This document shows positions 3,001 to 32,143 of a DNA stretch of 35,877 bases, in pieces (positions within the stretch are counted from its first letter, which is position 1; each line of letters opens with the position of its first letter). The notes under the pieces are model-generated. The model was not told the origin of the DNA and ran no database searches. It worked only from the letters and a program-made list of their open reading frames with translations. Made by a program: the position numbers and the translations under genes. The stretch is from Lachnospiraceae bacterium (GTDB lineage Bacteria > Bacillota > Clostridia > Lachnospirales > Lachnospiraceae): the NCBI GenBank assembly GCA_017470935.1, contig JAFUXG010000057.1:1-35877 (forward strand). Reading direction: 5' to 3'.

Positions 3001-6000
3001 ACTTACATTACCACTGCCATCAACTGCAGTAACAATAATATCATATTCACCATTGGCGTATTCAGCACTGTCAAAAGAACATTTAACAGCTCCTGCATAT
3101 ATATTCGTGGATATATTATCAATAACAAGCTTTGTACTTCCATCTTCTTTGCTCTTTATGGCAAATTCCACATTAGCCACCCTGTCATTATCTGTCACAT
3201 AGGTAGAGACCTCAACCTTCTTTGCCAGAAGGCTACCCTGTATCGGTGTTATACTGTGAACTACAGGCTTCTTCTCATCCGGAAGCTTCTGTGCAGTGAC
3301 CACGTTAGAACGCGCACTCTCATTACCTGCATTATCATATGCTGTAAGCTGGTAGCAATAGCTCGTATCATATGCAGCACTTCTGTCATAATACCCTATT
3401 GCTCCTATTGAAGCATTAATGCAGGTATAGGAATTAAGGCCTTCCACGCTTCTGTACAGCCTGTATCCGGCAACATCATTATCAAGTGGCTCGTTCCATT
3501 TAAGATGTATGCTTCCAGTATCCACCTCTGCCATCAGATTATCCACAGCAGATGGAGCCGTATGATCTATAATATACTGAATAAGTATCTGCTCCTTATC
3601 CCCTTCATTACCTGCAGTATCTGAAGCATATACACGTACATACAGATTTCCCTCATGCAGTCCCGTAGTATCAAAATCATAGCTTAGCACAGGCTGCTTT
3701 TCAGGCATCTCATATTTCTGTATGTATAATGGCTCCCACATATTTTCATCTGTTGAGTATTCTATAGTGATACTGTCAACGGCACAGTTGTCATAAGCGC
3801 TAACCCTTAACGGTATGCTGCCATTATAATATCCTCCTCCAGGTGTAACATTAGTGATCCGGGGCACAATGGTGTCTGCACCTGCTGTAACATCAAGTCT
3901 GTCAGAGGTCAAGCCTTTATTACCCTGTATGTCATAGAAGGTGACCTGATATGTGGTTGTCTCACCTGGCGTAAGTCCCTCTATAACACATCCTGTTGTG
4001 GTGGTTGCTCTGGTAATTACCTGAATTGTTCCATTTCCAAGTATCTGTTCCACCAATGCATAGGAATAATCCTCATCCTTAGGCGCATCCCATGACAGCA
4101 CCGCCGTAGTTGAATATATCTCCGCCGACAGTCCTGTAGGTGCTGAAGGACCTTCATTATCAATCTTATATGTACATAGGAATTCATCATTACAGTTACC
4201 CTCTTTGTCATATACTGTATAGCACAGAGTAACCTCTTTACCCATTGCTGTTGTGTCAAGCTCATAGACAGCCGTTCCACTCTCTATACTGCATTCTGTT
4301 ATGAGCTCATTTGCATCAGCCTCCTCATGGTATTTTTCAATAACAAGGCGGTGAAGCGCCTTATTGTCGGATGCCTTTACACTGATCTTTACCTTACCTG
4401 TAAGTACTCCGTCAAGAGGTGATACCTCCTCAATTCTCGGTGCCTCTGTGTCTTCATCTGACACAATCACCGCCCCCTCTGACCATTCTCCTTCTAATCC
4501 ACCTGCGTCATATGCAGCAACATAATATGTATATTCCTTGCTGGGCTCTATTGTCTTATCATAATGATATGTCTTATCAGGATTATCACTGTCTATAATG
4601 AGCGTCGCCTCTCCTCCCGCTTCTTTGCGGTATATATGATATCCTGCAATATCTGCTTCCCTGCCCTTTTCGTAGCTAATGACAGCGATACCGTTCCGCG
4701 CTTCGGCAGCTACCTCTTTAAGCTTAGACGGTGCGGTTTTATCAAGATAATATGTATATTCCTGTTCATATTCATATCCGCCTGCATCCGTTATTCTTAT
4801 TATGACATTGATTTCTTCTCCTACTATTTGTGTTGTATCAACATCCGCCTTAGCAGTAATAGTACTTCTGTATGATGTATTTTTTCCAACCTTCCTGTCA
4901 AGCAGAGTGACAGTAGCTTCTTCTCCCTTCTCCTTATACGCCATATATACATTATAGCCCTTTGCACTTCCTGTATTGACAAAGGCTGCTGATATCTCAG
5001 CTTTATTACCCGAAAGAACAGAATAAGCCTTCGGCTGTACCTCACTGACTTCAACTGCCTGAGTGAACATTATTATTTCTTCAGTCTTTTCTGATTCATT
5101 ACCGGTTGTGTCATAGGCAAGTATTTGATAGCTGTATTCGCGATTAGGCTCCAGTCCGCAATCAGTATAGGATGTGGTTTTTACATCACCAACCTGCTCA
5201 CTGTCACGATATATCCTGTAGCCTGCCACAGCAACATTGTCTGATGATTGCGTCCACGACATAGTAAGAGTCTGTCCGCACCTGTCAGACAAGGATAATT
5301 CCTCAGGAACAGAAGGTGCCACATCATCTGCAAGCGTCTTCACCGTCAGCACCTTTGATAAAGCTGACGTATTAAGCACTTCATCCTTTGCTATAACATA
5401 ATAGCTGTATTCGGTATCAGGAGTAAGCCTTTTATCTGTGTATGATGTTCCTGACACAGACATCAGCTTTTTATCATTTCTGTATATATCATATCCGCTA
5501 ACATCTGTATCATCCTCTGATGGTTCCCACGAAAGCTTAAGGGATGTATATCCTATATCTGAAGCAGAAAGTCCTGCCGGAGCAGATGGTGGAGTGATAT
5601 CCTTCACGTCATCAACAAGCTCATTGCACATATCTTCAACATTACGGCTGAATACATAGTAATCCCTTGGCTTTGTAAGAACAAGCTTGTTAAACTTTGC
5701 TGTCTGCGGCATTGTAACTGTCTGTATATGAGCCCTTCCATTGCTTGTCATCTTGCTGCTTAACGTTGTAGTATGATGTTCCTTTACCGTTACGGTACTA
5801 TACAGAAAGTTCACATTGCCCTTAATATCCAGATTGCCAGCTAAAAGATTGAATCTGCCCGTCCCCCCTAGATTCCCTGTTATTTGAACCACATCTTCGT
5901 CCTGTTCCATACAGAGAATTCCTGCACTGTTAAAATACACATTCTGTTTTATCTGCAAGATTCCACCATTAACAACACAGGAATTGTTGAAAGTGGCTGT

Positions 6001-9000
6001 TTCCGCTGTAAGATGATGTCCATTGATATCAAGAGGGCCATTGACGGTAAGCGTTCCTCCGATGCACAGATCATTCTCCAGTACAAGTTCTGACTTCACA
6101 ACAAGATTTCCCTCAAATTTATCAAATTCTGGGGACTCCCCATTATTCCAGTAAATTGACTTTCCCACTGTTCCATGCAGTCTGCTGCTGTTAGTTACAT
6201 GATTGTTTACATACATGTCTGTCATCACCACAACACCACCATAGGAAGTATTGTTGACAACTATTGTTCCTAGCGAACAATAATTATAACCGTTTACTTT
6301 CTGTACATCTTCACCGGAAAATACAAAGCTTATATTATCCGAAAAATCATTACTGATATATAAGGAAATATTACTTTTTAGTTCAAATATTCCGCACTTC
6401 ATTGAATCTGAATATCCATATCTTGGATACAGTACTGACGTCCCTTCTACACAGATATAATCTGAGGGATCATTCATGTAACATAATCCCTTTGAAGATA
6501 TATATTGACCATACTGGTTCTTATCCGCCATGATATAATCGCCTGTAACATATAGTTCCCCGCCGTTCATAGTAACATTGCCGCCGGGCTGGTTAAAATC
6601 ACCTAACACTGTCAGTTTATGCCCATTAAGATTCAGGTTTCCAATAATCAGCGTATAATCACCCTGTACCACAGTATCTTTGGTAAGCGTATATCCCATC
6701 TCGCCATCTATTGGAAAAGACAACTTATGCTCAGCGTCATATATGTTATCTGCCCTAAAAAGCTGTGATGAATACACACCTTCATCTGCTGTATTGCTTA
6801 CTTCAAGCTCATAGAAATACCATAGGTTTCCTGATTCGATATTCTGTTTCTTTGTACCGCTTAATATTACTCGCGCTCCTTCATTAAATGAATAGGCAGA
6901 CATGTTGGAACCTATTTTCATATCACCCTTTATTTCAATAATTCCATCTGACTGAATGCTATATCCTTTGCCATATGATCCGGGGCAAAAAAGCCCATCT
7001 ACTACCAGATGCTTTCCGTTCAGCTTTAAATATCCGGTATCCACATTTCCCTCAACATACAGATCATGAGTTAGCTTCTGCGGTTCTGCGAAATATAATA
7101 TTTCTGCCTTAATATATTCCTCTGTAATACTGCCATACAACATCATAACACCACCGACTGGATTGCCGTTGGTCTGTATATCTCCATAAAAGCCTATATT
7201 TTTCCACCATCTGATATATATGCCGGCTCTATTTCTAAGTTCAATATCACCTATGTACATCTTTCCGGTGTTGCTTGTGAATTCCTGACTCTTCGTTCCA
7301 TCCACTATCAACTTAGTGCCATTACGTAAATCAATCTGCCCGTATTGCACATATATATTACCTGCAATATATATATCCGAGTTATCCACACTTATTTCCC
7401 TTACAATATTCCAGCCGCCATCTATATCTATAATGCTGTTATTGACACGCAGCATTCCATAGTCATAATATGTATCCCAATTACCGCTTATATGAATAAT
7501 GCTGTTATCGATTGACATCAGCATACCACTATCAAAATCCCCTCCTACCGTGACCGAACAGTCACTCATCGTCATAAGATTTCCACTATATCTAAAATAA
7601 TCTTTTACATTAAGTGTGCTTCCGCTTAACGTAAATGAATCACCGTTGAACCAGAAGTATCCGTTGACCGTAAGTTTATGCCCATTCAAATTCATATCAC
7701 CCGCCGCCACGACCAGATCACCATTGATCACCTCATCATGTTGAAGGGTATATCCAAATATTCCGCCATTGGCAAAAGCGATTGTACAACCTGACACATT
7801 ATCAATACTGGAATATTTTAATTCATTGGAAACATATATTCCATCACCGCTTGTATTATTAATTACCAGATGACCAAGCTTCTCCGAATTTACATCCATT
7901 GTAATGGTCTGTTTCACTGTTCCATTAAGTTCAAGAATGGCATTCTTACCTGCGCATCCGCCTGCTGTATTTACTGTCACATCACCTCCTGCGCATATTC
8001 TTCCGTTGATAAATCTCTGAAGGTTCGTATTCATGATAAGACTACCGTAGACAACTATAAGATCGTCCTCATAAGACATTACTAGCCCATAGCCCGCTTT
8101 CCCCTCAATGGCAAAATCACCGCAGTAAACCTTTCCATGTTGTACTACAATATATGAATTATTATTGTTCATATATATTCTGTCTGACACAATAAGATTA
8201 TGCCCATTTACATATAAAGAACTTGATGTTTCAATACTTCCATCAATATTCCAGTCCTGATTCATGCTTACACTTTTCTTGATAATGATATCCCCTGCAT
8301 ATTTTCCTTCTACAAATGAGGCCCCGGTTCCAAGTCCTAATATGCCTGAGACACTACATGTCTGTTCTACTTCCCCGCATGCCATCGGTTTATTATTAAG
8401 AACAACACCTCTGTTATTCTTAAAGCACACTCTGCCAAAATAAGAACTGTTTGAATCAGAAAAAGCAATTGTCTGTTCATCATTTCCTGAAAACACTGTT
8501 GTATGCTGCTTTCCTGCCACATAAGAATCCACTGCACCCGACTGGTAAAAATCTCCTTTGACCTCTAAAATGCCCTTAATAAGTTTATTCCGATGGCTTA
8601 TTGATGATTCCATTCTGAAATCACCATCCACGATTATATGATCATCGGCATGAATCATTGACAAAGTTCCACCTGCAATTGTCAGACTGCCCTTAATATG
8701 GTAGGTATGCCCATTGGGATCTAATATCCCATCAACAATTACCAGATTCCCTTCATATTCGCCATCTTCACCTATACTGAATCCCCTCACCCCACCCGAT
8801 GCATATGACAGAGTCCCCTGCAGCATTGATACATTCACAATCTTAATCCCATCATCAGCAACAACACCGTAAGGATTATCGACCGTAATATTGGCAAATA
8901 CACTGTCATTATGTGTTATTGATATTCTCTGCTCTCTTTCACCTGAGAATATAACCTCTGCATTTTCTCCACATGACATATATGTACCTTCTTTGCCTTT

Positions 9001-10716
9001 AATATCTCCTCCAATTTCTAATATACCCTTTCTAAAATCGCAGCCTTTAGCATCTACTACAAAATCCCCATACACATTAATCTTTCCATTCTCCCCACTC
9101 ATACTCAGTTCAATATCAGACACGTCCATATTGCCAAGTACCGTTATCGTCTTATCAGGTCTGTCAATGTTCAAATGGATTCCTGTTGCTGACAAATTAC
9201 CGGTAACCTTAATGTCATATAATACATATATATAATTCGAACTTCCTGACACATACAGATTACCATGTATTGTCATATCCTTTGCAAATAGATAAGTTCT
9301 CGACACATATATATCGCCATACAGATCATCTCCATTGATCTTAGCATTGCTGATCACAGTCTTGCCTTTGACATTTCCTGATACATGCTCGACTGAACCG
9401 AATACTGTTATCGAACCTCCCCACTCCACACTGCCACTTTCCGGCTGGTCAATTATAAGATTGGCATACTTAAAAAAACCCGTGTAAAGCTTTCCTGTCT
9501 CTATAGTCTGCTTCCCTTCACCAGTAAGCTTCAAGCTATGGCTGCCACCTGTATTAAGCAGCTGATGCGTCAATGTATCATCCGCCTTAATACTGCCCTT
9601 AAGTTCCATGACGCCTGCCTTCATATAATAATATGTATCTACAAGTCCTGAGTCTACATAGTCACCTTCTATGAGAACATAGTCACTCTCTGAAGTCATC
9701 TGCAGTACCCCAACACTGTAATCTGCATATTCCTTTCCATTCAGGGAATATATGTACTGCCTTCTGTAGTCCCCCTTTACCGTAAGTCTTCCACCGTTAA
9801 CAGTTATGACTCCTCCTGCCTGTATAAGATCTCCCTCGACCGTCATATTATGTCCTGCAAGGTCAAGACTTCCATCAATCAGGTAATAATCCCCATAGAT
9901 AACTGTATCCTCCGTCAACGTTCCTCCTTTGTCGCTCTCCACGGCATAATAAAGCTTCCCCCCATTATCCTCAATCTCATCAATATTAAGTATATGCTTG
10001 GAAAACACACCTTCGTCACTTGAATTCTTAATTATAAGATGCTTAATGACTAGTTTGGAATTGGATTGTATATCTATCAGCTGTTTTTCACTCCCTGTTA
10101 ATATAATACTGCAGCCAGCATTATATACAATGGATGATTTGCATATACCGCTATCATTACCTATAATGTTTCCTTCTATTTCAATCGTTCCATAATCAAC
10201 TCTTCTTGATGTATTGTAAGAAGAATTGAATATATAATCACCCTTTATACGTATGAGGTCATTAGTTGAATTCATGCTAATCAAAGCATTATACTGTTCA
10301 CGCACTGATCCAAGTACATACAGAAATCCATCATTCATATATAAAGAACCATTAAGTATAACATCACCATGCACAATAATCTTATGTCCGTTCAGATTTA
10401 AGCTATAATTAATAGTAAGATTGCCCACCTCTATATCTTCATCAAGTGTTACACTTGTCGATATAACCCTGTCCTCATATACCTCGTTATCAATTTCATC
10501 AGCGTCAATTATCTCCTCTGTATCTTCACTTGCTATTCCTGCTGCTTCCTCCGCTGCACGTATCTGTTCTTCAGCTTCTTCGCTTGCCTGTTCATACGCC
10601 TTGGCATCATATTCCAATGCCCTTACCACCGATATTGAGCCACTGAATTCATTGATCCCTATTATCAAAAGCATAAACCATGCTGTCATCCTTCTAAAGC
10701 TGTATCTGCTATTCAT
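1..10716 (-). CDS. Giant secreted RHS/YD-repeat protein (3' end beyond window)
   Basis: One open frame of 3572 codons, with no stop on reading through, runs off the left edge, so the C-terminus is missing. Start chosen at the second of two adjacent ATGs, 6 nt after GGAG. Residues 1-32 look like a signal peptide (MNSRYSFRR, then a hydrophobic MTAWFMLLIIGI core). About residues 60-1690 are beta-rich modules of the type NGHxLxVxGD / GGxLxVxGDY / SGxxxQxI. From about residue 1704 come Fn3 domains (SWxPSxDDxxVxGYxIYR, YSYxVxAxD), alternating with Ig-like domains. A PKD domain (YRWDFGDGS) lies near 2677-2757, then a carboxypeptidase-regulatory-like domain (near 2765-2845) and a Gly/Ser linker (near 2910-2938). 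A DUF6531-like segment (ADPVNVSTGAY...FGYGWTHNYE) starts near 3205, followed by YD repeats. Known RHS proteins end in variable toxin or adhesin tips; none is visible here. Role inferred: surface or secreted polymorphic protein. Confidence 0.85.
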   Translation of the reverse strand, partial: MNSRYSFRRMTAWFMLLIIGINEFSGSISVVRALEYDAKAYEQASEEAEEQIRAAEEAAGIASEDTEEIIDADEIDNEVYEDRVISTSVTLDEDIEVGNLTINYSLNLNGHKIIVHGDVILNGSLYMNDGFLYVLGSVREQYNALISMNSTNDLIRIKGDYIFNSSYNTSRRVDYGTIEIEGNIIGNDSGICKSSIVYNAGCSIILTGSEKQLIDIQSNSKLVIKHLIIKNSSDEGVFSKHILNIDEIEDNGGKLYYAVESDKGGTLTEDTVIYGDYYLIDGSLDLAGHNMTVEGDLIQAGGVITVNGGRLTVKGDYRRQYIYSLNGKEYADYSVGVLQMTSESDYVLIEGDYVDSGLVDTYYYMKAGVMELKGSIKADDTLTHQLLNTGGSHSLKLTGEGKQTIETGKLYTGFFKYANLIIDQPESGSVEWGGSITVFGSVEHVSGNVKGKTVISNAKINGDDLYGDIYVSRTYLFAKDMTIHGNLYVSGSSNYIYVLYDIKVTGNLSATGIHLNIDRPDKTITVLGNMDVSDIELSMSGENGKINVYGDFVVDAKGCDFRKGILEIGGDIKGKEGTYMSCGENAEVIFSGEREQRISITHNDSVFANITVDNPYGVVADDGIKIVNVSMLQGTLSYASGGVRGFSIGEDGEYEGNLVIVDGILDPNGHTYHIKGSLTIAGGTLSMIHADDHIIVDGDFRMESSISHRNKLIKGILEVKGDFYQSGAVDSYVAGKQHTTVFSGNDEQTIAFSDSNSSYFGRVCFKNNRGVVLNNKPMACGEVEQTCSVSGILGLGTGASFVEGKYAGDIIIKKSVSMNQDWNIDGSIETSSSLYVNGHNLIVSDRIYMNNNNSYIVVQHGKVYCGDFAIEGKAGYGLVMSYEDDLIVVYGSLIMNTNLQRFINGRICAGGDVTVNTAGGCAGKNAILELNGTVKQTITMDVNSEKLGHLVINNTSGDGIYVSNELKYSSIDNVSGCTIAFANGGIFGYTLQHDEVINGDLVVAAGDMNLNGHKLTVNGYFWFNGDSFTLSGSTLNVKDYFRYSGNLMTMSDCSVTVGGDFDSGMLMSIDNSIIHISGNWDTYYDYGMLRVNNSIIDIDGGWNIVREISVDNSDIYIAGNIYVQYGQIDLRNGTKLIVDGTKSQEFTSNTGKMYIGDIELRNRAGIYIRWWKNIGFYGDIQTNGNPVGGVMMLYGSITEEYIKAEILYFAEPQKLTHDLYVEGNVDTGYLKLNGKHLVVDGLFCPGSYGKGYSIQSDGIIEIKGDMKIGSNMSAYSFNEGARVILSGTKKQNIESGNLWYFYELEVSNTADEGVYSSQLFRADNIYDAEHKLSFPIDGEMGYTLTKDTVVQGDYTLIIGNLNLNGHKLTVLGDFNQPGGNVTMNGGELYVTGDYIMADKNQYGQYISSKGLCYMNDPSDYICVEGTSVLYPRYGYSDSMKCGIFELKSNISLYISNDFSDNISFVFSGEDVQKVNGYNYCSLGTIVVNNTSYGGVVVMTDMYVNNHVTNSSRLHGTVGKSIYWNNGESPEFDKFEGNLVVKSELVLENDLCIGGTLTVNGPLDINGHHLTAETATFNNSCVVNGGILQIKQNVYFNSAGILCMEQDEDVVQITGNLGGTGRFNLLAGNLDIKGNVNFLYSTVTVKEHHTTTLSSKMTSNGRAHIQTVTMPQTAKFNKLVLTKPRDYYVFSRNVEDMCNELVDDVKDITPPSAPAGLSASDIGYTSLKLSWEPSEDDTDVSGYDIYRNDKKLMSVSGTSYTDKRLTPDTEYSYYVIAKDEVLNTSALSKVLTVKTLADDVAPSVPEELSLSDRCGQTLTMSWTQSSDNVAVAGYRIYRDSEQVGDVKTTSYTDCGLEPNREYSYQILAYDTTGNESEKTEEIIMFTQAVEVSEVQPKAYSVLSGNKAEISAAFVNTGSAKGYNVYMAYKEKGEEATVTLLDRKVGKNTSYRSTITAKADVDTTQIVGEEINVIIRITDAGGYEYEQEYTYYLDKTAPSKLKEVAAEARNGIAVISYEKGREADIAGYHIYRKEAGGEATLIIDSDNPDKTYHYDKTIEPSKEYTYYVAAYDAGGLEGEWSEGAVIVSDEDTEAPRIEEVSPLDGVLTGKVKISVKASDNKALHRLVIEKYHEEADANELITECSIESGTAVYELDTTAMGKEVTLCYTVYDKEGNCNDEFLCTYKIDNEGPSAPTGLSAEIYSTTAVLSWDAPKDEDYSYALVEQILGNGTIQVITRATTTTGCVIEGLTPGETTTYQVTFYDIQGNKGLTSDRLDVTAGADTIVPRITNVTPGGGYYNGSIPLRVSAYDNCAVDSITIEYSTDENMWEPLYIQKYEMPEKQPVLSYDFDTTGLHEGNLYVRVYASDTAGNEGDKEQILIQYIIDHTAPSAVDNLMAEVDTGSIHLKWNEPLDNDVAGYRLYRSVEGLNSYTCINASIGAIGYYDRSAAYDTSYCYQLTAYDNAGNESARSNVVTAQKLPDEKKPVVHSITPIQGSLLAKKVEVSTYVTDNDRVANVEFAIKSKEDGSTKLVIDNISTNIYAGAVKCSFDSAEYANGEYDIIVTAVDGSGNVSKALTSDCVIHNVTLETPVLYGISGDWCVDLHCTIDPSLDYVLYRRNQQTEEDYTAVATGKGSLMYRDTDVNPRYTYMYQVMVQDEAGNTASSALQYVKPGAVDSIAPISVINTNTSVVEGYETIFSGADSTDNDRIVSYRWDFGDGSSEVTGPSPKHTYSKEGEYIVKLTVEDGSGNTDYTTARITVLPKSGAGKAYVTVRNASGSPLKGVTVYVNSTAEKNNLSTTDSKGCTTIMEKPGTYKIALYKPGYMAVEESVEIELHGDKEYVFTLAEGETISADFTVRQMDFDEIVAAGIDLSAPENQHVFTVTTKLSFGDATRTGEAIINTPVLPVKAVVSGGDKGDAGAGSGGGPSSGSGGGGNSKPQQEGDNDEPVPDLYYTIYITQSISWLKDMYEATLIVYNNATSQTIVAKDLTATLYLPAGLSLAITRNGQEQKLSLPDLKGGESGSVSWYVRGDAPGTYKLNAMLNGTLQPFGADFTGSFNSNEFEVTAGKGLVLTICPEDRAEKGEAYYVYYTLSNEGSKEFYNVHTTFGTQHNNSKRYISSSDGTKSVPVMSEGDVVAVECLKPGESISGIYKTSLPVEGDKWYNYKSLVEAQWKACAGSNLGVDVRLSVVGSHVAVPTLVYQEQTEENSEADPVNVSTGAYTDSITALSVQGVNPVLAQLSYDSNATAELGEFGYGWTHNYETRILDMKDGTVRYYVSPTGYYTFLAEDYESKKEIKTDKDGYLYIDVSNIPMKQSFKCLNDNKAGYELKRSDKGAYTLTDKAGNITRFDKKGNVTKMSNREGKSITIERDSNEFTVTDETSGRFLIYELDKDTKLVTSVTDGDRTAYFHYDKNKCLKQFDNALGESTYYTYDKKHRITSVTNDDGITYVENTYVLSEEGRISPTGTEEDAASAMGEAFKEGRVKSQKDALGYVTKFAYSEDDTNGNLTTTVTTRSGAKKKTITDPYGNVVSFTNEAGDTTVTTYDDNGNETYVNQPDVTTADGKKTSYSIS
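5620..10110 (-). repeat. About nine divergent beta-rich modules in the giant protein
   Basis: A module recurs roughly every 450-640 bp. Its most recognisable box is a G-x3-Q-[TIK]-I core followed by a strand such as LVINNTSG or LIIKNSSD. Boxes lie near nt 10105, 9530, 8950, 8500, 7930, 7300, 6860, 6325 and, more degenerate, 5700. Between boxes are short strands of the form LNLNGHKLTVxGD, GGxLxVxGDY and MNGGELYVTGDY. Copies are diverged at DNA level. The pattern suggests a beta-solenoid stalk; that is inference from periodicity, not a recognised family hit. Confidence 0.6.
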
Positions 10717-10837
10717 CATCGTCTCCACCATCCACATTACAATATAGTTACTTATAAATATAATTTATTTCACCGCTTTTGTCCATAGTTTATATACAAA
10801 ATTCCATATACAAATCATTTATAATATAACTATTAAT
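10717..10837 (-). other. Leader of the giant gene, no confident promoter
   Basis: AT-rich stretch between the ribF terminator and the giant gene. TATA-like words (TATAAA, TATATT) occur, but none has a convincing -35 box at 16-18 bp. In-frame ATGs at 10737 and 10731 are possible alternative starts but lack a ribosome binding site. Confidence 0.3.
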
Positions 10838-20032: not shown

Positions 20033-21016
20033 TTATTTATTAATATAATTAACTGACTTTCCTGCACCCATAACCACTGCTTCAAGTGCAGTTGGCGCAA
20101 CCAAGGCTTTGATACCGGTACTTTCCTCCACAAGCTTATCCATTCCATATATCAAACTGCCACCGCCGGTAAGAACAATCCCGTGTTCTGCAATATCAGC
20201 AACAAGCTCTGGCGGCGATATCTCTAAAACATTATGTATCGTATCAAGAATCTGTGCTGTAACCTCTGCAAAGGCTTCAATCGTCTCTTCTGATGATACA
20301 AGAATTCTTGCAGGAAAACCAGTAACAAGATCCCTTCCCTTAACCTCCATTGTAACAGGCTCTTCACGTGGAAAAACAGAACCAATTGTCATTTTAATCC
20401 GCTCTGCTGTAGGCTCTCCAATAAGAAGATTATATGTTCTACGAACATATTTTATAATCGCATCATTATAGTCATCACCGGCAAGCTTAAGTGAATTACT
20501 TTCCACAATTCCGCCAAGTGATATAACTGCAACATCACTTGTTCCACCGCCAATATCAACAATCATTGTTCCTCTTGGCATTGCGATATCAATATCAGCT
20601 CCAATTGCAGCTGCAATTGGCTCTTCCATTATATCAACATGCTTTGCACCGGTATTATATACCGCATCCTCAACAGCTCTTCTCTCAACCTCTGTTACAC
20701 CACTCGGTACACAAACACATATGCGTGGTCGTGAGAACATCTTCTTTTTCTGCATAGCAGTTTCAATAAATGCCTTCAGCATTCTCTCAGTAACTGTGAA
20801 ATCTGAAATAACCCCCTGTTTAAGTGGTCTAATAACCTCAATATTATCGGGCGTCTTTCCCATCATCTGCTTAGCCTTGTTACCTATAGCAATCAATCTT
20901 TTGGTCTTCTTTTCAAATGCGACAACAGAAGGCTGATTGATAACAATCCCTTTCCCCTTAACGTATACCAGCACATTAGCGGTACCCAAATCTATTCCTA
21001 TGTCCATATCAAACAT
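20033..21016 (-). CDS. mreB: MreB/Mbl-family rod-shape actin
   Basis: Actin-like ATPase that forms membrane-bound filaments guiding lateral-wall synthesis. Motifs: IGIDLGTANVLVYVKGKG (phosphate 1), IVDIGGGTSDVAVISLGG (phosphate 2), MEEPIAAAIGA (connect 1), HGIVLTGGGSLIYGMDKL (adenosine) and the C-terminal ALEAVVMGAGK. 327 aa, slightly short of the usual 333-345. ATG start with GGAGG 9 nt upstream. mreC and mreD are absent here, so this is an orphan copy and could equally be the Mbl-type paralogue. It lies directly downstream of the scaffold-like pair, separated by a hairpin terminator and its own leader. Confidence 0.95.
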   Translation of the reverse strand: MFDMDIGIDLGTANVLVYVKGKGIVINQPSVVAFEKKTKRLIAIGNKAKQMMGKTPDNIEVIRPLKQGVISDFTVTERMLKAFIETAMQKKKMFSRPRICVCVPSGVTEVERRAVEDAVYNTGAKHVDIMEEPIAAAIGADIDIAMPRGTMIVDIGGGTSDVAVISLGGIVESNSLKLAGDDYNDAIIKYVRRTYNLLIGEPTAERIKMTIGSVFPREEPVTMEVKGRDLVTGFPARILVSSEETIEAFAEVTAQILDTIHNVLEISPPELVADIAEHGIVLTGGGSLIYGMDKLVEESTGIKALVAPTALEAVVMGAGKSVNYINK

Positions 21017-21092: not shown

Positions 21093-21145
21093 AACAAAAA
21101 ATACAGAAAAAACAACTGTTAAATTGTTTTTTCTGCATTTTTGTT
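21093..21145 (-). terminator. Long AT-rich terminator hairpin before mreB
   Basis: Two arms of about 22 nt, AACAAAAA...GAAAAAACAA and its near-perfect complement, flank an 8-nt loop starting 13 bp after the stop of the 1045-aa gene. The minus-strand RNA would end in a U-rich arm. It should separate that gene from mreB, at least in part. Confidence 0.65.
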
Positions 21146-21157
21146 ATATATTAGCAA

Positions 21158-24100
21158 TTATTCAAAATCTGCTGAGACAAGCCTGTGATCCTGTTCGCCT
21201 GTACTCATCTCACGATTATGTGCTTTAGAGATAGCGTTATCAACAAATTTGAGTACCCGGTCAAGATTACCGCTTTCAACCTCCTGCATACGGCGTCTTA
21301 AATTGTTCTCTGCACTAGGCTCACATGGATATCCGGATTTCGACGCATGATTCTTTGCTATTGCGAAAACATCCATATCTGTGATACGATGAACCTGTAT
21401 TAAATGCTTAAACTGACTTGAGATAACAACATTATCTTTAAATATTTTAGACAAGGTCTCAATCTGCCCTGTCATTATTACTACAACATCATTATCAGGA
21501 TTGCTGACAATACGATATATCTCGTCAAGCTTTTCTGTTGATATAACACCTGCATTCTCTATTACAAGACAACCGCCCTGCAGCTTGCTAATGGCATCTG
21601 AAATATTAGCTCTATTAAGCGCACCGGCCTTGATCTTAGCAATAGTTTTTGTCTTACATATTCCCATAGCATGGAAGCTTCTGGCAAAATCTTCTGCAAT
21701 AGTAGTAGTTCCAAAACCATACTGTCCCAAAATAACAACATTTCTTGGCTCACTTGGATTTTCACTAATATATTTTACAGCATTGACAATCTGCTCACTT
21801 ATAGAAGCAACAGACAAATATTTGCCCAGATACTGTTCAGCCCCCACAGGTAAAGAATAATCTCCATCTGATGACGCTGCTTGAGGAGCTGACTGCGGAG
21901 CTTCCTCTGAATGCATTGAAACCTCCTCAAGTGCTCTTCTAGCCTCTTCGGCCTTCTTAGCAGCTTCTTCTGCCATCTTCTGATATTTAAGAGCTTCTTC
22001 CTCTGCTTTACGTTTTGCTTCCTCTTCGGCCTTCTTTCTTGCCTCTTCCTCAGCCTTACGTCTTGCTTCCTCTTCGGCCTTACGTCTTGCCTCTTCCTCA
22101 GCCTTACGTCTTGCTTCCTCTTCGGCCTTACGTCTTGCCTCTTCCTCAGCCTTGCGCCTTGCTTCCTCTTCAGCCTTCTTTCTTGCCTCTTCTTCAGCCT
22201 TGCGCCTTGCTTCCTCTTCAGCCTTTATTCTTGCCTCTTCCTCGGCCTTGCGTCTTGCTTCCTCTTCAGCCTTTATTCTTGCCTCTTCCTCGGCCTTGCG
22301 TCTTGCCTCCTCTTCAGCCTTTATTCTTGCCTCTTCCTCGGCCTTGCGCCTTGCTTCCTCTTCAGCCTTTATTCTTGCTTCTTCCTCGGCCTTACGCCTT
22401 GCTTCCTCTTCGGCCTTTATTCTTGCCTCTTCCTCGGCCTTGCATCTTGCCTCCTCTTCAGCTTTCTTTCTTGCCTCTTCCTCAGCCTTGCGTCTTGCTT
22501 CCTCTTCGGCTTTCTTTCTTGCTTCTTCTTCAGCCTTGCGCCTTGCTTCCTCTTCGGCTTTCTTTCTTGCCTCTTCCTCCGCCTTGCGCCTTGCTTCCTC
22601 TTCGGCCTTTATTCTTGCCTCTTCCTCCGCCTTGCGCCTTGCTTCCTCTTCGGCCTTTATTCTTGCCTCTTCCTCCGCCTTGCGCCTTGCTTCCTCTTCG
22701 GCTTTCTTTCTTGCTTCTTCTTCAGCTTTCTTTCTTGCCTCTTCCTCCGCCTTACGTCTCGCTTCCTCTTCGGCCTTCTTTCTTGTCTCTGCCTCTTCTT
22801 CCTTACGTCTCGCTTCCTCTAATTCCTTAGCCTTTGCTTCTGCTTCTCTAATTCTTCGCTGCTCCTCCTCAGCCTTTCTCATGGCTTCTTCAGCAGCTTT
22901 TCTCTTCTTTTCCTGTTCTTCTCTTCTCTTTTCCTCTGCAAGCCTTTGTGCTTCCTCTGCTTTTCTTGCAGCCTCTTCTTCAGCAGCCTTTGAATCAGAT
23001 GTATAGCCCATTACATCATCATCATCATCATCAAAGTCAATATTATAAGCACTTTGCACATCATTAGAATCCCCAGGTCTCTGCTTAACTGGTACAACAC
23101 TTATCAGATCACCATTTTCATCCACCAAAGAATCTCTTTTGCTTCCAGTTTCAGATTTAACAGTTTGGGGTGTTGTCCCGGCATCACTCCATGTTGCCTC
23201 AACCGAGCCCGCGGAACTATCAGCGCCTGAACTCCAGCCTGCATTTCCATCATCAACAATAATTGTATTACCTGCCCCTACAACTTGTACAGGCTCAGGA
23301 ACAGGCTTATGTGGAGTTGGTTTATTCTGTGGAGTTACATCTTGTGATACCTTAACAGCTCCGGCAGAAGAGCCTGCTTGAGATTTCTCCACCGCTGCAT
23401 TTATTTCCTTTGTATCAAGTGCAATGGTACTTTCATCACTACCAGTAGATGCTTTAGAATTAGCTGTAATATCAATACCTAATCCGCCACCACCAATTCC
23501 ACCTGATAACGTATTCTGACCCTTATTAATATTTGAAAGAGTTGGTCCATTTCCTGAAGGATTAGATAATGTTGGTCCGTTGTTCAAACCACCTAGTCCA
23601 CCAGAAACCCCTGATGATGACAAAGTATCTTTTGGAGATTCTTTAACAGGGCTTTCCTTATTTGAATCTTCTTTAGGCGGAATAACACCAGCCTTTTTTA
23701 ACCGTTTCTTTTCTTCAATCCTCGCCATTTCTTCAGGTGAAATAGTTCTAAATGCAGGCTTTGGTTTATCTCCACTAGATTGAGGACTGCTGCTGTTACT
23801 ATTAGTATTGCTGTTAACAGTATTCGCAGCTGCCGATTCTGCCTTGGCAGCCTTTTCCTTCTCAACTTGGGCTCTTATAGCCGCAATTAACGCTTCTGTT
23901 TGATCCATACTCTTCTCCTGCACCCGCCTTTCAGCTTCAATTTTTGCTTCTTCCTCTGCTCTGAACCGTTCTCGCCTTTCTTCCTCCGCCCTCTGTTCAG
24001 CAATTTTTCTTGCATGCTCAGCAGCAAGCTCTGGATTATTCTTGAGTTCCTCTTCCTCTCTTTTCTGCTGCTCTCTTTGCTTTCTCGCTGCATCTCGCTG

Positions 24101-24295
24101 TTCAAACGCTAAGGCGCGCTGTCTCATTTCTTCCTGCTGTTTGGCTAATGCTTCCTTTGCAGCAACAGCCTGAGCCTCACGCTTTAAACGATTCTCTCTC
24201 ATTTCGGGAGTTTCCTCTATATCATTCATAGACATCCCCTGATTACCTCTAGGTGAATTCTTGTTACCGCCCCCACCTCTTAATTGAATAGCCAT
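21158..24295 (-). CDS. Long-helix protein with degenerate CbxX/SpoVK-like AAA+ domain
   Basis: 1045 aa with no signal peptide or membrane segment, so cytoplasmic. Order: charged helical N-terminus (21-160), Ser/Asn/Gly/Pro-rich low-complexity linker (160-430), a DFDDDDDD acidic spot, charged helix including 33 octapeptides (507-770), and a C-terminal AAA+-like domain (about 830-1030). The AAA+ matches the CbxX/CfxQ layout: VVILGQYGFGTTTIAEDFA, GGCLVIENAG, DNDVVVIMTG, ISSQFKHLIQVHRITDMDVFAIAKNHASKSGY. Key residues are changed: Walker A Lys is Thr, the Walker B DE pair is EN, and the expected arginine finger is Gln961. It is therefore probably not an ATPase. ATG starts 6 nt after the TPR gene stop, so they are coupled. 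Function unknown; a scaffold is inferred. Confidence 0.85.
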   Translation of the reverse strand: MAIQLRGGGGNKNSPRGNQGMSMNDIEETPEMRENRLKREAQAVAAKEALAKQQEEMRQRALAFEQRDAARKQREQQKREEEELKNNPELAAEHARKIAEQRAEEERRERFRAEEEAKIEAERRVQEKSMDQTEALIAAIRAQVEKEKAAKAESAAANTVNSNTNSNSSSPQSSGDKPKPAFRTISPEEMARIEEKKRLKKAGVIPPKEDSNKESPVKESPKDTLSSSGVSGGLGGLNNGPTLSNPSGNGPTLSNINKGQNTLSGGIGGGGLGIDITANSKASTGSDESTIALDTKEINAAVEKSQAGSSAGAVKVSQDVTPQNKPTPHKPVPEPVQVVGAGNTIIVDDGNAGWSSGADSSAGSVEATWSDAGTTPQTVKSETGSKRDSLVDENGDLISVVPVKQRPGDSNDVQSAYNIDFDDDDDDVMGYTSDSKAAEEEAARKAEEAQRLAEEKRREEQEKKRKAAEEAMRKAEEEQRRIREAEAKAKELEEARRKEEEAETRKKAEEEARRKAEEEARKKAEEEARKKAEEEARRKAEEEARIKAEEEARRKAEEEARIKAEEEARRKAEEEARKKAEEEARRKAEEEARKKAEEEARRKAEEEARKKAEEEARCKAEEEARIKAEEEARRKAEEEARIKAEEEARRKAEEEARIKAEEEARRKAEEEARIKAEEEARRKAEEEARIKAEEEARRKAEEEARKKAEEEARRKAEEEARRKAEEEARRKAEEEARRKAEEEARRKAEEEARKKAEEEAKRKAEEEALKYQKMAEEAAKKAEEARRALEEVSMHSEEAPQSAPQAASSDGDYSLPVGAEQYLGKYLSVASISEQIVNAVKYISENPSEPRNVVILGQYGFGTTTIAEDFARSFHAMGICKTKTIAKIKAGALNRANISDAISKLQGGCLVIENAGVISTEKLDEIYRIVSNPDNDVVVIMTGQIETLSKIFKDNVVISSQFKHLIQVHRITDMDVFAIAKNHASKSGYPCEPSAENNLRRRMQEVESGNLDRVLKFVDNAISKAHNREMSTGEQDHRLVSADFE
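21986..22777 (-). repeat. 24-bp tandem repeat encoding 33 KAEEEARx octapeptides
   Basis: Thirty-three consecutive octapeptides K-A-E-E-E-A-R-[R/K/I] (hand count), residues 507-770. The eighth position often alternates R and I or K, giving a 48-bp higher-order unit. Acidic and basic residues sit i to i+4 apart, and the period is eight rather than seven. This favours a charged single alpha-helix or TolA-like rod over a classical heptad coiled coil. Confidence 0.95.
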
Positions 24296-24301
24296 ACCCT
24301 A

Positions 24302-26914
24302 TCATCTACTTTCTTTTAAATCTAACAATCCCTGTATCATCTTGTCTGTTAAAATAATTCTTACTCTTAGATCATGCCTATGATCAAATAATGGATCTTC
24401 ATCCAAACCTTCTACCTGAATTATCGGCTCTTCGCTCAGCTCTTCTTCTGCTGCTGCTTGAATTATCGGTTCTTCACTTGCCTCTTCCTCTATCTGGATT
24501 TCAGTCTCCTGAACATCCTCTTCTAATTGATCTGTTGACTCTTCATCAGGCTCGGTCTTTAATTCATTTTCAACATCTATAGTCTGGTAAGACTCGGATT
24601 CATCAAATGACTTCCATATTGGTTCATCATAGCTGTCCTCGTCATTTTCCCACCTTGGAGCTATAAATGTATCTGCTTCATCACTATTTGCATATGGTTC
24701 AAACTCTGCAGAGTATTTTCCATCTGCTTCCTCATCCTCAGCCGACTCTGTATAATGCTCCTCTGCTGCCTCCTCTATCGGCTCTGCGTAATGCTCCTCT
24801 GCTATCTCCTCTACCGGCTCTGCATTATGCTCCTCTGCTGCCTCCTCTATCGGCTCTGCGTAATGCTCCTCTGCCATCTCCTCTACCGGCTCTGCATAGG
24901 ATTCCTTTACAGGTTCTGATTTCGGCTCTTCTATACTCTCCGTATACTGTTTTGCTTCATCTTTATCTGTATCCGGGATAATTTCTTCAAAATCTATAAT
25001 CGAATTATCAGTATATATTTCTTCTACCTTATATACCTGATCATTAATACTATCATAATCAGCAGCTGTATTATTATCATTAATGCTAACATTTCCGATG
25101 TAATCATTAAATTCATAATCATCAACTTCGAATCCATGATTCTCATAGCTTGCTTTTGATTCAAAGCCTCTCGAATCCTCACCGGTATAATACTCTTTAT
25201 TATCTATCATTCTATGAAGAATGTCTGCAGCCTCTGGAGCTTCATCCTCCATCTTATCATCCACATCAGACTGTACAACCGACATAAAGCCTAATGTCTC
25301 TAACGGTTCGTCCTCTGCTTCCTCCTCATCCTCCTGATCGGCAAGGAAACGATTCTTTAACTCTTCAAAAGAGACCGAAGCAATCGCTTCATTCTTTATA
25401 TTAGAATCAATGACGATAACTTCCTCTGCTTGATCATCAGTATCCCCTGCAGCATCCGCAAGGTCTGTATCCTCTTTCTTGTCAAAGCTGAACAGTTTTT
25501 TCTTGTTTTTCTTTTTATCCTCGATCAGAACAGCAGCTTCTAATGCCTCCAGCTCAAGCTTCTCCTGTTCTTCCTTTCTAGTCTCAAGCTCTTTGACCTC
25601 ATCTGGAGACATTGCTTCTAAGGAATCCGGAACAAGTGCATCAAGCTCCTCATTCGTAACAACCTGGCCTACTGCCTTTTTCGGCGGCTCCAATACACTT
25701 TCAATTATTCCATCTACAAATTCGTCAGTCGGCTCATCATATGTTGCTGCTGGTTTAGCAGCTCCAACAGCATCTCCCAGCGTATCTGCTGCTTTTACCA
25801 CATTATCTATTACAACATCTGTTACCTTCTTAACCTGTTCTTTTGCCTTCTTGGCATCTTCAGTTACATTTCTTGCTATAGCCTTAGATGATTCCCTGAT
25901 TGCTTCGGCATCGACTTTTTTAGCAAGAATTCTATCAAGGGCTTCCTCTCGTTCCTTTTTTACAAGCTCCTTAGCAGCCTCCTGATTTTCACTATCGGCA
26001 TCAATAGCTTTCTTATCATCAGTGTCATCATCAGTCTTATCATCAGCTGTATTTGTATCAGCAGAAGCGTCATTTACTCCTTCTGACTGAGATTCTTGCA
26101 TAGTATCATTATCACTATTCTTATTACGCTTTTCACGCTTCTTCTTTGGCTTCTTCTCCTTAGAAGGCTTAACATCTACCGCATCCTTATCCTCTGCCTC
26201 AACAATAATCTTAGCTTCAGGCGGATACATTCTATAATGGTCGGCTTCTAAAACCTTGTCCTCATGCTCTATAAGCTTTCCGTATAACTCCTTATCTTCA
26301 GCCACTTCTTCCTTTGGATAAATATAAAAATATTTATCCACATCTAATTTGTCATCAATATATTCGATAACAGGCTTAATATAAATAGACTCCTTATAGT
26401 TTTCAAGGATATATTGCGCTTCCTCAAGTGCCTTATCCTTGCGGTCTAGCTTATGATAAAGCAAAACAGCTTCAAAATTCCACTTGTCCTCCGGCATTGT
26501 CTCCAAGATCGGGATCAATATAGAGGCTAATTCTTTGATATCTCCTCCTGCTGCCTTTTTCATAATATATTCCACATAATCCTTTTGTGTATCTTCCTCT
26601 GTGGAATAAAATGTATATTGCTCATAATACTTCTTAGCCCTGGTAAAATAGCCAAGTTCAAGATAAAGTTCTATAAGCTCCGCAATAATACGTGTTCCCT
26701 GTGGCGCCATCTCGTGAGACTTGATAAGAATCCTTCGACTATCATAGTAGCGCTTATTCTCTCTAAAAATCTCACCACTTATCCTCAAAAACTGTGGATT
26801 GATTGACTTATCCAAGTTCTGGGTATCCAATATTTCCAAGGCTTCTGCATATTTCTTTTCTTCTGCCAATTCCTTTATGCGATTAATACTCGATATGCTG
26901 ATTCCCGTACTCAC
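24302..26914 (-). CDS. TPR-like protein with long acidic disordered tail
   Basis: About 870 aa with no signal peptide or membrane segment. Residues 1-210 are paired helices typical of TPR (IKELAEEKKYAEALEILD, ENKRYYDSRRILIKSHEMAPQG, ELIELYLELGYFTRAKKYYEQY, KDKALEEAQYILENYKES). A Lys-rich patch (EKKPKKKREKR) follows, then some 550 residues dominated by Asp and Glu, including four 12-residue repeats. The end is a compact, mixed-charge segment, HRHDLRVRIILTDKMIQGLLDLKESR. GTG at 26914 is chosen because GAGG lies 8 nt upstream; the GTG nine bases earlier is part of that site. Its stop is 6 nt before the next gene. Role unknown; TPR suggests partner binding, probably with the following AAA+-like protein. 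Confidence 0.8.
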   Translation of the reverse strand: MSTGISISSINRIKELAEEKKYAEALEILDTQNLDKSINPQFLRISGEIFRENKRYYDSRRILIKSHEMAPQGTRIIAELIELYLELGYFTRAKKYYEQYTFYSTEEDTQKDYVEYIMKKAAGGDIKELASILIPILETMPEDKWNFEAVLLYHKLDRKDKALEEAQYILENYKESIYIKPVIEYIDDKLDVDKYFYIYPKEEVAEDKELYGKLIEHEDKVLEADHYRMYPPEAKIIVEAEDKDAVDVKPSKEKKPKKKREKRNKNSDNDTMQESQSEGVNDASADTNTADDKTDDDTDDKKAIDADSENQEAAKELVKKEREEALDRILAKKVDAEAIRESSKAIARNVTEDAKKAKEQVKKVTDVVIDNVVKAADTLGDAVGAAKPAATYDEPTDEFVDGIIESVLEPPKKAVGQVVTNEELDALVPDSLEAMSPDEVKELETRKEEQEKLELEALEAAVLIEDKKKNKKKLFSFDKKEDTDLADAAGDTDDQAEEVIVIDSNIKNEAIASVSFEELKNRFLADQEDEEEAEDEPLETLGFMSVVQSDVDDKMEDEAPEAADILHRMIDNKEYYTGEDSRGFESKASYENHGFEVDDYEFNDYIGNVSINDNNTAADYDSINDQVYKVEEIYTDNSIIDFEEIIPDTDKDEAKQYTESIEEPKSEPVKESYAEPVEEMAEEHYAEPIEEAAEEHNAEPVEEIAEEHYAEPIEEAAEEHYTESAEDEEADGKYSAEFEPYANSDEADTFIAPRWENDEDSYDEPIWKSFDESESYQTIDVENELKTEPDEESTDQLEEDVQETEIQIEEEASEEPIIQAAAEEELSEEPIIQVEGLDEDPLFDHRHDLRVRIILTDKMIQGLLDLKESR
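24752..24895 (-). repeat. 36-bp tandem repeat in the TPR gene
   Basis: Four 12-residue units of the form AEP[VI]EE[MAI]AEEH[YN], with odd and even copies more alike (EPVEE[MI] against EPIEEAA), which points to duplication of a 72-bp pair. Confidence 0.9.
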
Positions 26915-26988: not shown

Positions 26989-28050
26989 TCAAAATATGCC
27001 TGTATGTTCTGCCATTTTAATAATTTTATCATAAGAAAAAATCTTTGACAATAAAAAACCGCCAAATAATCCAAAGCAAAAGCCACCAATATGTGCTGCA
27101 TTATCTATGCCCACCGTTGTTAGTCCATAGTATATTGTAAGCAGAGCCATGACCATAAGTCTTCTTGCTGTAAGATTTCTATTATCGGACGTACCAGATG
27201 GACCCGCCAAAAGATATACAATCAAGCATCCAATAACTCCAAAGATTGCCCCAGAAGCACCAGCACTTGCAATTTCAGTCTCCCCGATTCTGGCATAATA
27301 CCACAATGATGCCGCATTACCAGCAATCCCACTCAAAAGATATATCAACAGATACCTGATAGATCCTATTCTCTTTTCCAGTTCGCATCCAACGTAAGTC
27401 AACAGCACCATGTTATTAAATAAATGTGATATGCCAAAATGGAGAAACAAGGATGCTACTAATTCATACCATCCTCCATCAATAAAGGTCTCATATGAAA
27501 GTGCTCCCATTTTTAGCATAACGGATGTATCATAGGAGGCAAATATACTGCCATTAATACCAATAACTACTATATATATAATTATATTCAACACTACGAT
27601 TGAAATATTGGCTGGAGTCAGTTTAAATGGCAATCCAGCTTCTGAACTGTTATGAAGTCTAAAAAGATTATTCTCTAAATACTCGGCAAGACCAGAATCA
27701 AATTGTGCCGGCTGATTTTCATAGATATATATCTTACCTGTGTCTGCTGCAAGAAGCCAGACTCCAGAAAGCCCTGCTGCTATATTAGTTAATACCTCAT
27801 CAAAGATCCCATCACGATTAACAATGATCAATAACGTCCGAACCTTTTTCTTATACCTATTGACAACATTGAAGCTTATGCCCTGAACTAATCTTTCGTA
27901 ATCATTAAGTCTTGATTCCTTTTGATATGCATTAAGTATGACCAGAAAAACTTCGCTCTCTGCTTCCTTAACAAAGCTGCCCGTTCTTCCATTAATATCA
28001 TACGGACTATATCCTTTCTGCTGTAAAAGCGATGCGATCTGATTAAGCAA
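26989..28050 (-). CDS. Rhomboid-family intramembrane serine protease (GluP-like)
   Basis: 353 aa. Residues 1-140 are a soluble N-terminal domain (FLVILNAYQKE...TLLIIVNRDG) like that of Bacillus GluP/YqgP. Six or more membrane segments follow, from residue about 148. Catalytic features: HFGISHLFNN (His204, His209, Asn213), GASGAIFGV with nucleophile Ser266, and NAAHIGGFCFGLFGG with His320. It cleaves membrane proteins within or near the bilayer. GluP has a C-terminal TPR domain; this one stops after the last helix, while a TPR-like protein is encoded next. The start is TTG, with GGAGGAG 7 nt upstream. It follows the HAD gene by 28 bp, so the two probably share a transcript. Confidence 0.93.
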   Translation of the reverse strand: MLNQIASLLQQKGYSPYDINGRTGSFVKEAESEVFLVILNAYQKESRLNDYERLVQGISFNVVNRYKKKVRTLLIIVNRDGIFDEVLTNIAAGLSGVWLLAADTGKIYIYENQPAQFDSGLAEYLENNLFRLHNSSEAGLPFKLTPANISIVVLNIIIYIVVIGINGSIFASYDTSVMLKMGALSYETFIDGGWYELVASLFLHFGISHLFNNMVLLTYVGCELEKRIGSIRYLLIYLLSGIAGNAASLWYYARIGETEIASAGASGAIFGVIGCLIVYLLAGPSGTSDNRNLTARRLMVMALLTIYYGLTTVGIDNAAHIGGFCFGLFGGFLLSKIFSYDKIIKMAEHTGIF

Positions 28051-31678: not shown

Positions 31679-32143
31679 CTAAGCTATGGCATCAATACGG
31701 TTACCCTTTGTTGCCTCACTCTCAAAGGACTTCTGATTCTTGCTATAGGGATCGCTGCCGTAGGTTTTCATCACAGTTCTTGTTGTTCCACCTGCAACAT
31801 ATGCCCTTCCACATTCCGGGCAAATAGCTGTCTTCAGATTAACTGTTGCGGAAACGAGTTCCTTGTCCTTCTCATTACCCTCTGCAATCGCATTGGCAAC
31901 ATGCTCCTTCTCGTGACTCATAACCTTGCCATAAGACTCTCCGGGATCAATATGTCCACCGGTCTTAAATGATACCATCTCGTCAGAGCCATCCTGATAC
32001 CTTCTGTTCTTACAGGTCTGACACTCTATAGGCTTGACCTTGCCGGAGCTGTCTACTGTGTTATCCGCATTGATAGGTGTGACGTAATCAACATTAGAAA
32101 CAGGTATTATATATCTGTTGCTCATACCCACTGGGCCTAACAT
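31679..32143 (-). CDS. SprA-like putative metallopeptidase (HExxH)
   Basis: 154 aa. Cys41-x2-Cys44 in CQTCKNRRYQDGSDE, then VSFKTGGHIDPGESYGKVMSHEKEHVANA with an HExxH zinc motif (His77, Glu78, His81), then Cys108-x2-Cys111 in ICPECGRAYVAGGTTRTV. This arrangement matches the SprA-related family of putative metallopeptidases; activity is inferred from the HExxH only. No signal peptide is seen. ATG start with AAGGGGAG 8 nt upstream. Its candidate promoter shares a -35 box with the divergent TetR-type gene, about 165 bp upstream, which suggests joint control. Confidence 0.75.
   Translation of the reverse strand: MLGPVGMSNRYIIPVSNVDYVTPINADNTVDSSGKVKPIECQTCKNRRYQDGSDEMVSFKTGGHIDPGESYGKVMSHEKEHVANAIAEGNEKDKELVSATVNLKTAICPECGRAYVAGGTTRTVMKTYGSDPYSKNQKSFESEATKGNRIDAIA

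Follow-up and report, generated by a model that had tools for sequence, protein, structure and literature searches.

A TPR–linker–pseudo-AAA+ protein of the Lachnospiraceae that is split over two genes beside mreB in one genus and lies next to glycogen genes in many relatives

Two adjacent genes, here called T and A, in a stretch of Lachnospiraceae DNA of 35,877 nucleotides (GenBank assembly GCA_017470935.1, contig JAFUXG010000057.1; the whole stretch is referred to as the window) almost certainly encode the two halves of a single protein of the Lachnospiraceae, made up of a TPR domain, a long acidic flexible linker and a CbxX-type AAA+ domain. The protein is a single chain in most genera surveyed and is encoded by two adjacent genes in the genus of the window and in two others, G027 and G034. 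Judging from the sequences, we favour the reading that it is a scaffold without motor activity, whose ancestral tie was to glycogen metabolism and which was split and moved beside mreB in the window genus; taken whole, function included, we would give this reading slightly less than an even chance.

The first-pass annotation of the window had described a TPR protein and an inactive-looking CbxX-type AAA+ protein encoded by two genes 6 bp apart, with a rhomboid gene upstream of T and mreB downstream of A, and this layout was confirmed (Table 1). On the minus strand the gene order is thyA, DHFR, YbjQ-like, HAD phosphatase, rhomboid, T, A, mreB, rimP and nusA, followed by what we take from the usual gene order, rather than from a family search, to be ylxR and then infB. 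The GTG at 26914 has a good ribosome site in front of it. Both proteins do contain the extremely long, low-complexity charged regions that had been reported: the acidic region of T covers ∼600 residues, with a net charge of −141 (computed on the mechanical 873-aa ORF), and the charged helix of A, separated from the N-terminal segment by a glycine/serine-rich stretch, contains 34 KAEEE units.

Table 1. Features of the T/A region in the window.
Feature	Position	Strand	Basis or remark
T: TPR domain, long acidic low-complexity region and short conserved C-terminal tail; 870 aa, GTG start	24302..26914	−	Kept as its own gene in the genus
TPR domain of T, the orthologue of that at the N-terminus of the fused protein	26333..26908	−	Match to fused-only profile
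Acidic tandem repeat in T, period 36/72 bp	24735..24898	−	
Split-point end of T: conserved C-terminal tail, LRVRIILTDxMxxGLLDLKESR	24305..24379	−	Comparison within the genus and with G027
A: conserved N-terminal segment, long charged helix and CbxX-like pseudo-AAA+ domain; 1045 aa	21158..24295	−	
N-terminal segment of A, at the split point; ends EKxMDQTEALIAAIRAQVEKEK	23846..24295	−	High conservation in the genus
Charged-helix repeat of A, KAEEEARR type, 24/48 bp	21993..22829	−	
Pseudo-AAA+ domain of A, CbxX kind	21161..21871	−	
Degenerate Walker A of A, GQYGFGTT	21704..21727	−	Sequence and family comparison
Degenerate Walker B of A, GGCLVIENAG (canonical paralogue, GGVLFIDEAY)	21548..21577	−	Sequence and family comparison
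Terminator-like hairpin and U run, between A and mreB	21097..21142	−	z −6.75
Rhomboid protease gene, upstream of T	26989..28050	−	Genus-level neighbour, also in G027
mreB, downstream of A	20033..21016	−	Genus-level neighbour

Two further ORFs of the window were recorded on the same strand. A 154-aa ORF (31679–32143) had no Pfam match at 0.001 and adjoins thyA in all seven genus loci compared. At positions 1–10737 an ORF of at least 3579 aa, which runs past the window edge and carries fibronectin type III, PKD, DUF6531 and RHS-repeat domains, encodes a giant surface or RHS-type protein.

We surveyed 91 Lachnospiraceae loci: the window, 10 loci from a first search and 80 from the best matches to a profile of the TPR domain. 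The last were hand-picked from the best-scoring places listed, with long contigs favoured, and weak-scoring lineages are therefore under-sampled. In 86 of the 91, both domains lie in one ORF of 690–1538 aa, so that the earlier remark that similar parts are fused in one chain elsewhere holds true inside the Lachnospiraceae itself, and T/A is orthologous, in split form, to a protein found across the family. The five other loci comprise three split forms (the window, L070 of G027 and L077 of G034) and two that are cut by contig ends (L072 and L249). Profiles built from the 86 fused proteins only matched both members of the window pair, the double match by which we define the TPR–linker–pseudo-AAA+ family here: T was matched with an E-value of 7.3e-26, and the C-terminal domain of A with 4.4e-35, compared with 1.7e-17 for the canonical CbxX protein of the same genome. 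The split and fused states are separated by a single change on a quick tree of 89 rows, in which the split rows sit on long branches. An apparent giant fusion in one relative, an ORF of 2473 aa, runs through undetermined bases and was discarded.

The TPR profile matched 283 of 299 Lachnospiraceae genomes representing 298 genera, and 236 of the 245 of good quality; the AAA+ profile matched 288 of the 299, its weaker matches including other CbxX proteins. Of 196 genomes drawn from across the order, 25 matched, 22 of them Lachnospiraceae and three, weakly, from outside the family. Eighty named public loci were collected by a TPR domain 67–75% identical to the query. Most bear the name Lachnospiraceae or that of a genus (Acetatifactor, Parablautia and Blautia among others); the titles of some go no further than Bacillota, Clostridia or bacterium, and one reads Candidatus Gastranaerophilales. 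Among the Pfam and NCBIfam models scanned none fits the protein, and the open-access texts covered, in part, by a literature search yielded no description of a TPR–linker–pseudo-AAA+ protein. The initial impression that no named system has this form therefore stands for these models and texts.

Tabulating neighbours across the Lachnospiraceae, as the first-pass annotation had proposed, brought out a family-wide association with glycogen genes that is not visible in the window. In 59 of the 91 loci the +1 gene, oriented like the core gene, encodes the branching enzyme GlgB; the gap between the two has a median of 30 nt, and they overlap in three loci. One neighbouring GlgB that was scanned passes the NCBIfam cut-offs, and two show by eye the motifs typical of GlgB. 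Glycogen phosphorylase (GlgP) is encoded at −1 in five loci, and a GH13 amylase at +1 in two and at +2 in one. At least one of these three enzymes is encoded within five genes in 71 of 91 loci, as against 0 of 20 control loci of canonical CbxX genes in Lachnospiraceae genomes, the control being 20 of the 33 canonical places listed, with 4 to 10 neighbours each and mostly from genomes other than those surveyed. Neighbours were delimited with a simple greedy ORF caller that takes the first possible start, which gave 2 to 10 of them per surveyed locus. The window is one of the 20 loci in which no gene for any of the three lies that close, and in the genus genomes G002, G005 and G009 the nearest GlgB genes are on contigs other than those of T/A.

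The most serious competitor to the scaffold reading, one that we consider possible though clearly less probable, is that the protein serves the Lachnospiraceae in some general way, in housekeeping or under stress, and that glgB is adjacent through old inherited synteny rather than shared function. Neighbour turnover bears on both sides of this question. When changes were counted alike on the 89-row tree, a quick tree with the split clade on long branches, and each neighbour family was treated as a state of its own, there were at least 21 at +1, 47 at −1 and 53 at +2; because the +1 neighbour changes less than the other two, the glycogen link appears to have been held longer than the other surroundings. 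Scored as two states, ‘GlgB at +1’ changes four times and ‘any of the three nearby’ seven times. Upstream neighbours are often genes of a housekeeping kind (rsmA, tatD, aconitase), however, and the commonest of them (18 loci) changes only five times, about as stable as GlgB, so that part of the GlgB link may be inherited synteny. Nor is a common operon proof of a common function. One clade has recR and a HAD gene as neighbours instead, and the loci that lack any nearby glycogen gene also fit a housekeeping role. On the other hand, clades that do not have glgB at +1 sometimes have glgP or a GH13 gene as neighbours, and glycogen neighbours were absent throughout the canonical CbxX control.

Nor does the presence of the protein follow that of glycogen synthase, GlgA, as the housekeeping role would allow. 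GlgA was found in 289 of 299 genomes and is thus almost universal, so that co-occurrence says little. Among the 10 genomes in which it was not found, nine have the TPR domain, and among nine genomes in which neither domain was found, eight have GlgA, several of these genomes being incomplete; co-occurrence is uninformative to negative.

Other genes recur in these neighbourhoods. Three clusters of genes that follow the fused gene and GlgB (29, 26 and 24 loci) each include a scanned member with a match, to DUF6240, flagellin and FliS respectively, and glycogen and flagellar genes share a neighbourhood in L205, L207, L214–L217 and others. In the clade of L268, L271, L278, L282 and L284 the core gene lies beside a colicin-V-production-like gene, with recR in four of the five; its AAA+ domain aligns poorly and no glycogen gene is present within five genes. 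Further upstream in this clade are presumably ybaB and dnaX, guesses that we base on size and usual order. As to the literature, the sections of PMC10395257 covered contain a single mention of Lachnospiraceae glgB, and a bacterial scaffold for glycogen storage was not found described in the open-access texts searched, which were covered in part.

The neighbourhood in the window had suggested a link of the pair with MreB or with the rhomboid protease, and a cell-shape or envelope scaffold working with both is the next alternative. In the other genomes of the genus, the TPR domain was found in 22 of 25 (as fragments in two) and a strong match to the AAA+ domain in 19 of 25. Adjacency of T and A in relatives had been set beforehand as a test of the first reading, and the two genes are adjacent, with rhomboid upstream and mreB downstream, in all seven genus genomes that have both on one contig; with the window, the order rhomboid–T–A–mreB is thus found in 8/8 loci. 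In 11 of the 18 other genus genomes that have both, T and A are on separate contigs, as expected if assembly breaks in repeats, and draft assemblies will therefore under-report the pair.

Outside the genus, mreB was not found within five genes in any of 90 surveyed loci. The rhomboid gene is beside T in the window genus and in G027, and is a neighbour in no other genus surveyed; in G027 it is argininosuccinate synthase that is encoded downstream of A. Moreover, a terminator-like hairpin between A and mreB was judged present in seven of the eight genus loci, and mreB is therefore probably its own transcription unit in most members of the genus; the exception is L085, where mreB begins ∼40 nt after A and the U-rich hairpin is absent. 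The link to MreB is accordingly weak and that to the rhomboid is confined to two genera, and we regard a role in cell shape or at the envelope as improbable, certainly more so than a housekeeping role.

By sequence and by fold, the AAA+ domain of A belongs to the CbxX/CfxQ superfamily (CbbX, SpoVK), and its nearest solved relative is CbbX. The last 237 aa of A nevertheless score only 32.7 bits with the CbbX model (cut-off 459.25) and 34.3 bits with that of SpoVK (cut-off 422.95), and the window A has none of the motifs characteristic of CbxX/CfxQ proteins, namely Walker A (GxxxxGK[ST]), Walker B (DE), the pore loop (GYxG) and the arginine finger. Much the same applies to the family at large, in which the rows of the L278-type clade align poorly. 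The Walker A lysine, missing from the window, is kept in 49 of 90 members; the Walker B aspartate is present in 5/90 and the glutamate in 6/90 (EN in the window), and the finger arginine in 4/90 (Q in the window). In no member do the Walker A lysine, the catalytic glutamate and the finger arginine occur together (0/90). The pore-loop glycine plus aromatic (GY) is found in 0/90 compared with 21/21 canonical CbxX proteins, and the sensor-2 arginine, lost in most of the family, is present together with the finger arginine in all 21. As the Walker B motif was the criterion for choosing this canonical set, its 21/21 for Walker B is by construction; in a separate set of 20 canonical loci not chosen in this way, Walker A and B are intact in 20/20.

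Since nearly all members lack the Walker B acids, the arginine finger and the pore loop, the domain is unlikely to thread substrates as a normal ATP-driven motor would, and it looks like a pseudo-motor that has kept the AAA+ fold. Retention of the Walker A lysine, which is not tied to a GlgB neighbour, means that nucleotide binding may still matter. The loss of the motor parts, together with glycogen genes that are often adjacent in relatives, makes a scaffold more likely than an engine, and to this extent the scaffold-like character proposed from the window alone gains support from the family's sequences.

CbbX remodels Rubisco, an enzyme of carbon metabolism. As CbbX is also the nearest solved relative, the protein might by analogy be an active remodelling ATPase with a glycogen enzyme as its substrate, in effect a GlgB activase, and the lysine kept by about half of the members would suit such a role. 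The near-absence of the Walker B glutamate and the finger arginine, and the complete absence of the GY pore loop, argue against it, and we consider an activase very improbable. The family differs from CbbX, SpoVK and CbxX/CfxQ proteins in general by the additional TPR domain and long acidic linker as well.

In EccA, the cytoplasmic ATPase of type VII secretion, a TPR-type region is followed by a CbxX-type AAA+ domain in one chain. The fused relatives have the same order, in the window the two parts are split over two genes instead, and EccA had been put forward as the point of comparison; an EccA-like ATPase is nevertheless scarcely credible here, the kinship extending no further than the shared CbxX superfamily. 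Matches to EccA were weak: the model TIGR03922 gave 22 bits with the last 237 aa of A and 33.4 bits with the fused protein L213, far under its cut-off of 466.65, and the family AAA+ profile matched EccA1 (9lur) with an E-value of 8.8e-10. EccA was not listed by the TPR profile at 0.01, nor was it among the fold matches listed, which excludes nothing. The proteins studied here also differ from EccA in the length of the linker (210–1049 aa), in the loss of most motor residues and in a TPR domain that is not specifically EccA-like. Furthermore, the EssC-type ATPase of type VII secretion exceeded its cut-off in only seven of 22 genus genomes (G001, G009, G015, G016, G018, G019 and G021); it did not do so in the window's own genome, which is 78% complete, or in 14 of the 21 others, and T/A occur in genomes without EssC, such as G002, G005 and G013. 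In the parts of PMC11217815 covered, EccA is described for ESX systems, the AAA+ protein of clostridial T7SSf is said to lack detectable homology to EccA, and no T/A-like protein was found among the type VII variants. On the model score and the EssC distribution we rejected an EccA identity; as a whole, the first reading is partly supported.

Two other candidates were discarded. A exceeds the cut-off of a TolA model (TIGR02794, 104.6 against 59.45 bits) by way of its charged alanine-rich helix. The best match, at residues 661–824, is mostly a low-complexity stretch, and the C-terminus of A models as an AAA+ domain; A is also far below the cut-off of the stricter model PRK09510. We take this match, and one to Cornifin that is likewise over the cut-off, to be compositional. 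For anti-phage defence, PADLOC returned nothing for T or A and a single ATPase match of 17.8 bits for a fused member.

In the 86 fused proteins the linker has a median length of 480.5 aa and a median net charge of −96. Short conserved elements are embedded in it. The motif EKQITGQMSIEDILAEWE, a pattern composed after the sequences had been inspected, occurs in 51 of the 86, compared with a mean of 0.175 in 200 shuffles, and a profile of it matches 69 of 2625 ORFs, all of them core ORFs of this protein and 51 of them training rows. Neither pattern nor profile is found in any of the three split forms (window, L070, L077). A second motif, NTxNLQxELA, occurs in 30 of the 86 and in none of 200 shuffles. 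In a structural model of fused L213 (860 aa; mean pLDDT 76.4, pTM 0.39), the TPR and AAA+ domains are confident singly and their mutual placement is not; the linker motifs fall on a helix at 245–261 and across the start of a predicted helix at 350–402, into which EKQITGQMSIEDILAEWE extends.

The split forms are conserved at the cut itself. Within the genus, T ends with LRVRIILTDxMVxGLLDLKESR or a close variant, a tail to which that of G027 is only partly alike, and A opens with about 130 conserved residues, the terminal stretch of which recurs in G027. Conserved ends amid fast-changing sequence suggest that T and A bind one another there, and the halves probably rejoin through the C-terminal tail of T and the N-terminal segment of A.

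On the scaffold reading that we favour, the TPR domain would grip a partner, the linker would present its short conserved helices, and the AAA+-shaped domain may serve as an oligomerization or passive binding platform. Conserved gene order makes GlgB, GlgP and the GH13 amylase the most likely ancestral partners. In the window genus the two halves would meet again through the ends described above. A fuller and more speculative version, which we hold to be rather unlikely in all its particulars, is that an AAA+ scaffold without motor activity organizes GlgB and GlgP on glycogen throughout the family, and that in the window genus a cut in its tether gave rise to two genes; these would have come to lie beside mreB, perhaps acquiring a link to the envelope, and the new ends of their products would rejoin.

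Nearly all of the Lachnospiraceae genera sampled carry this large protein, and none of the Pfam and NCBIfam models scanned describes it. An AAA+ motor domain seems here to have been converted in nature into a component without motor function, and the arrangement of the genes points to a specific connection with glycogen storage that experiments can address. The split version offers a naturally occurring experiment in which a fused protein would have become a two-subunit complex.
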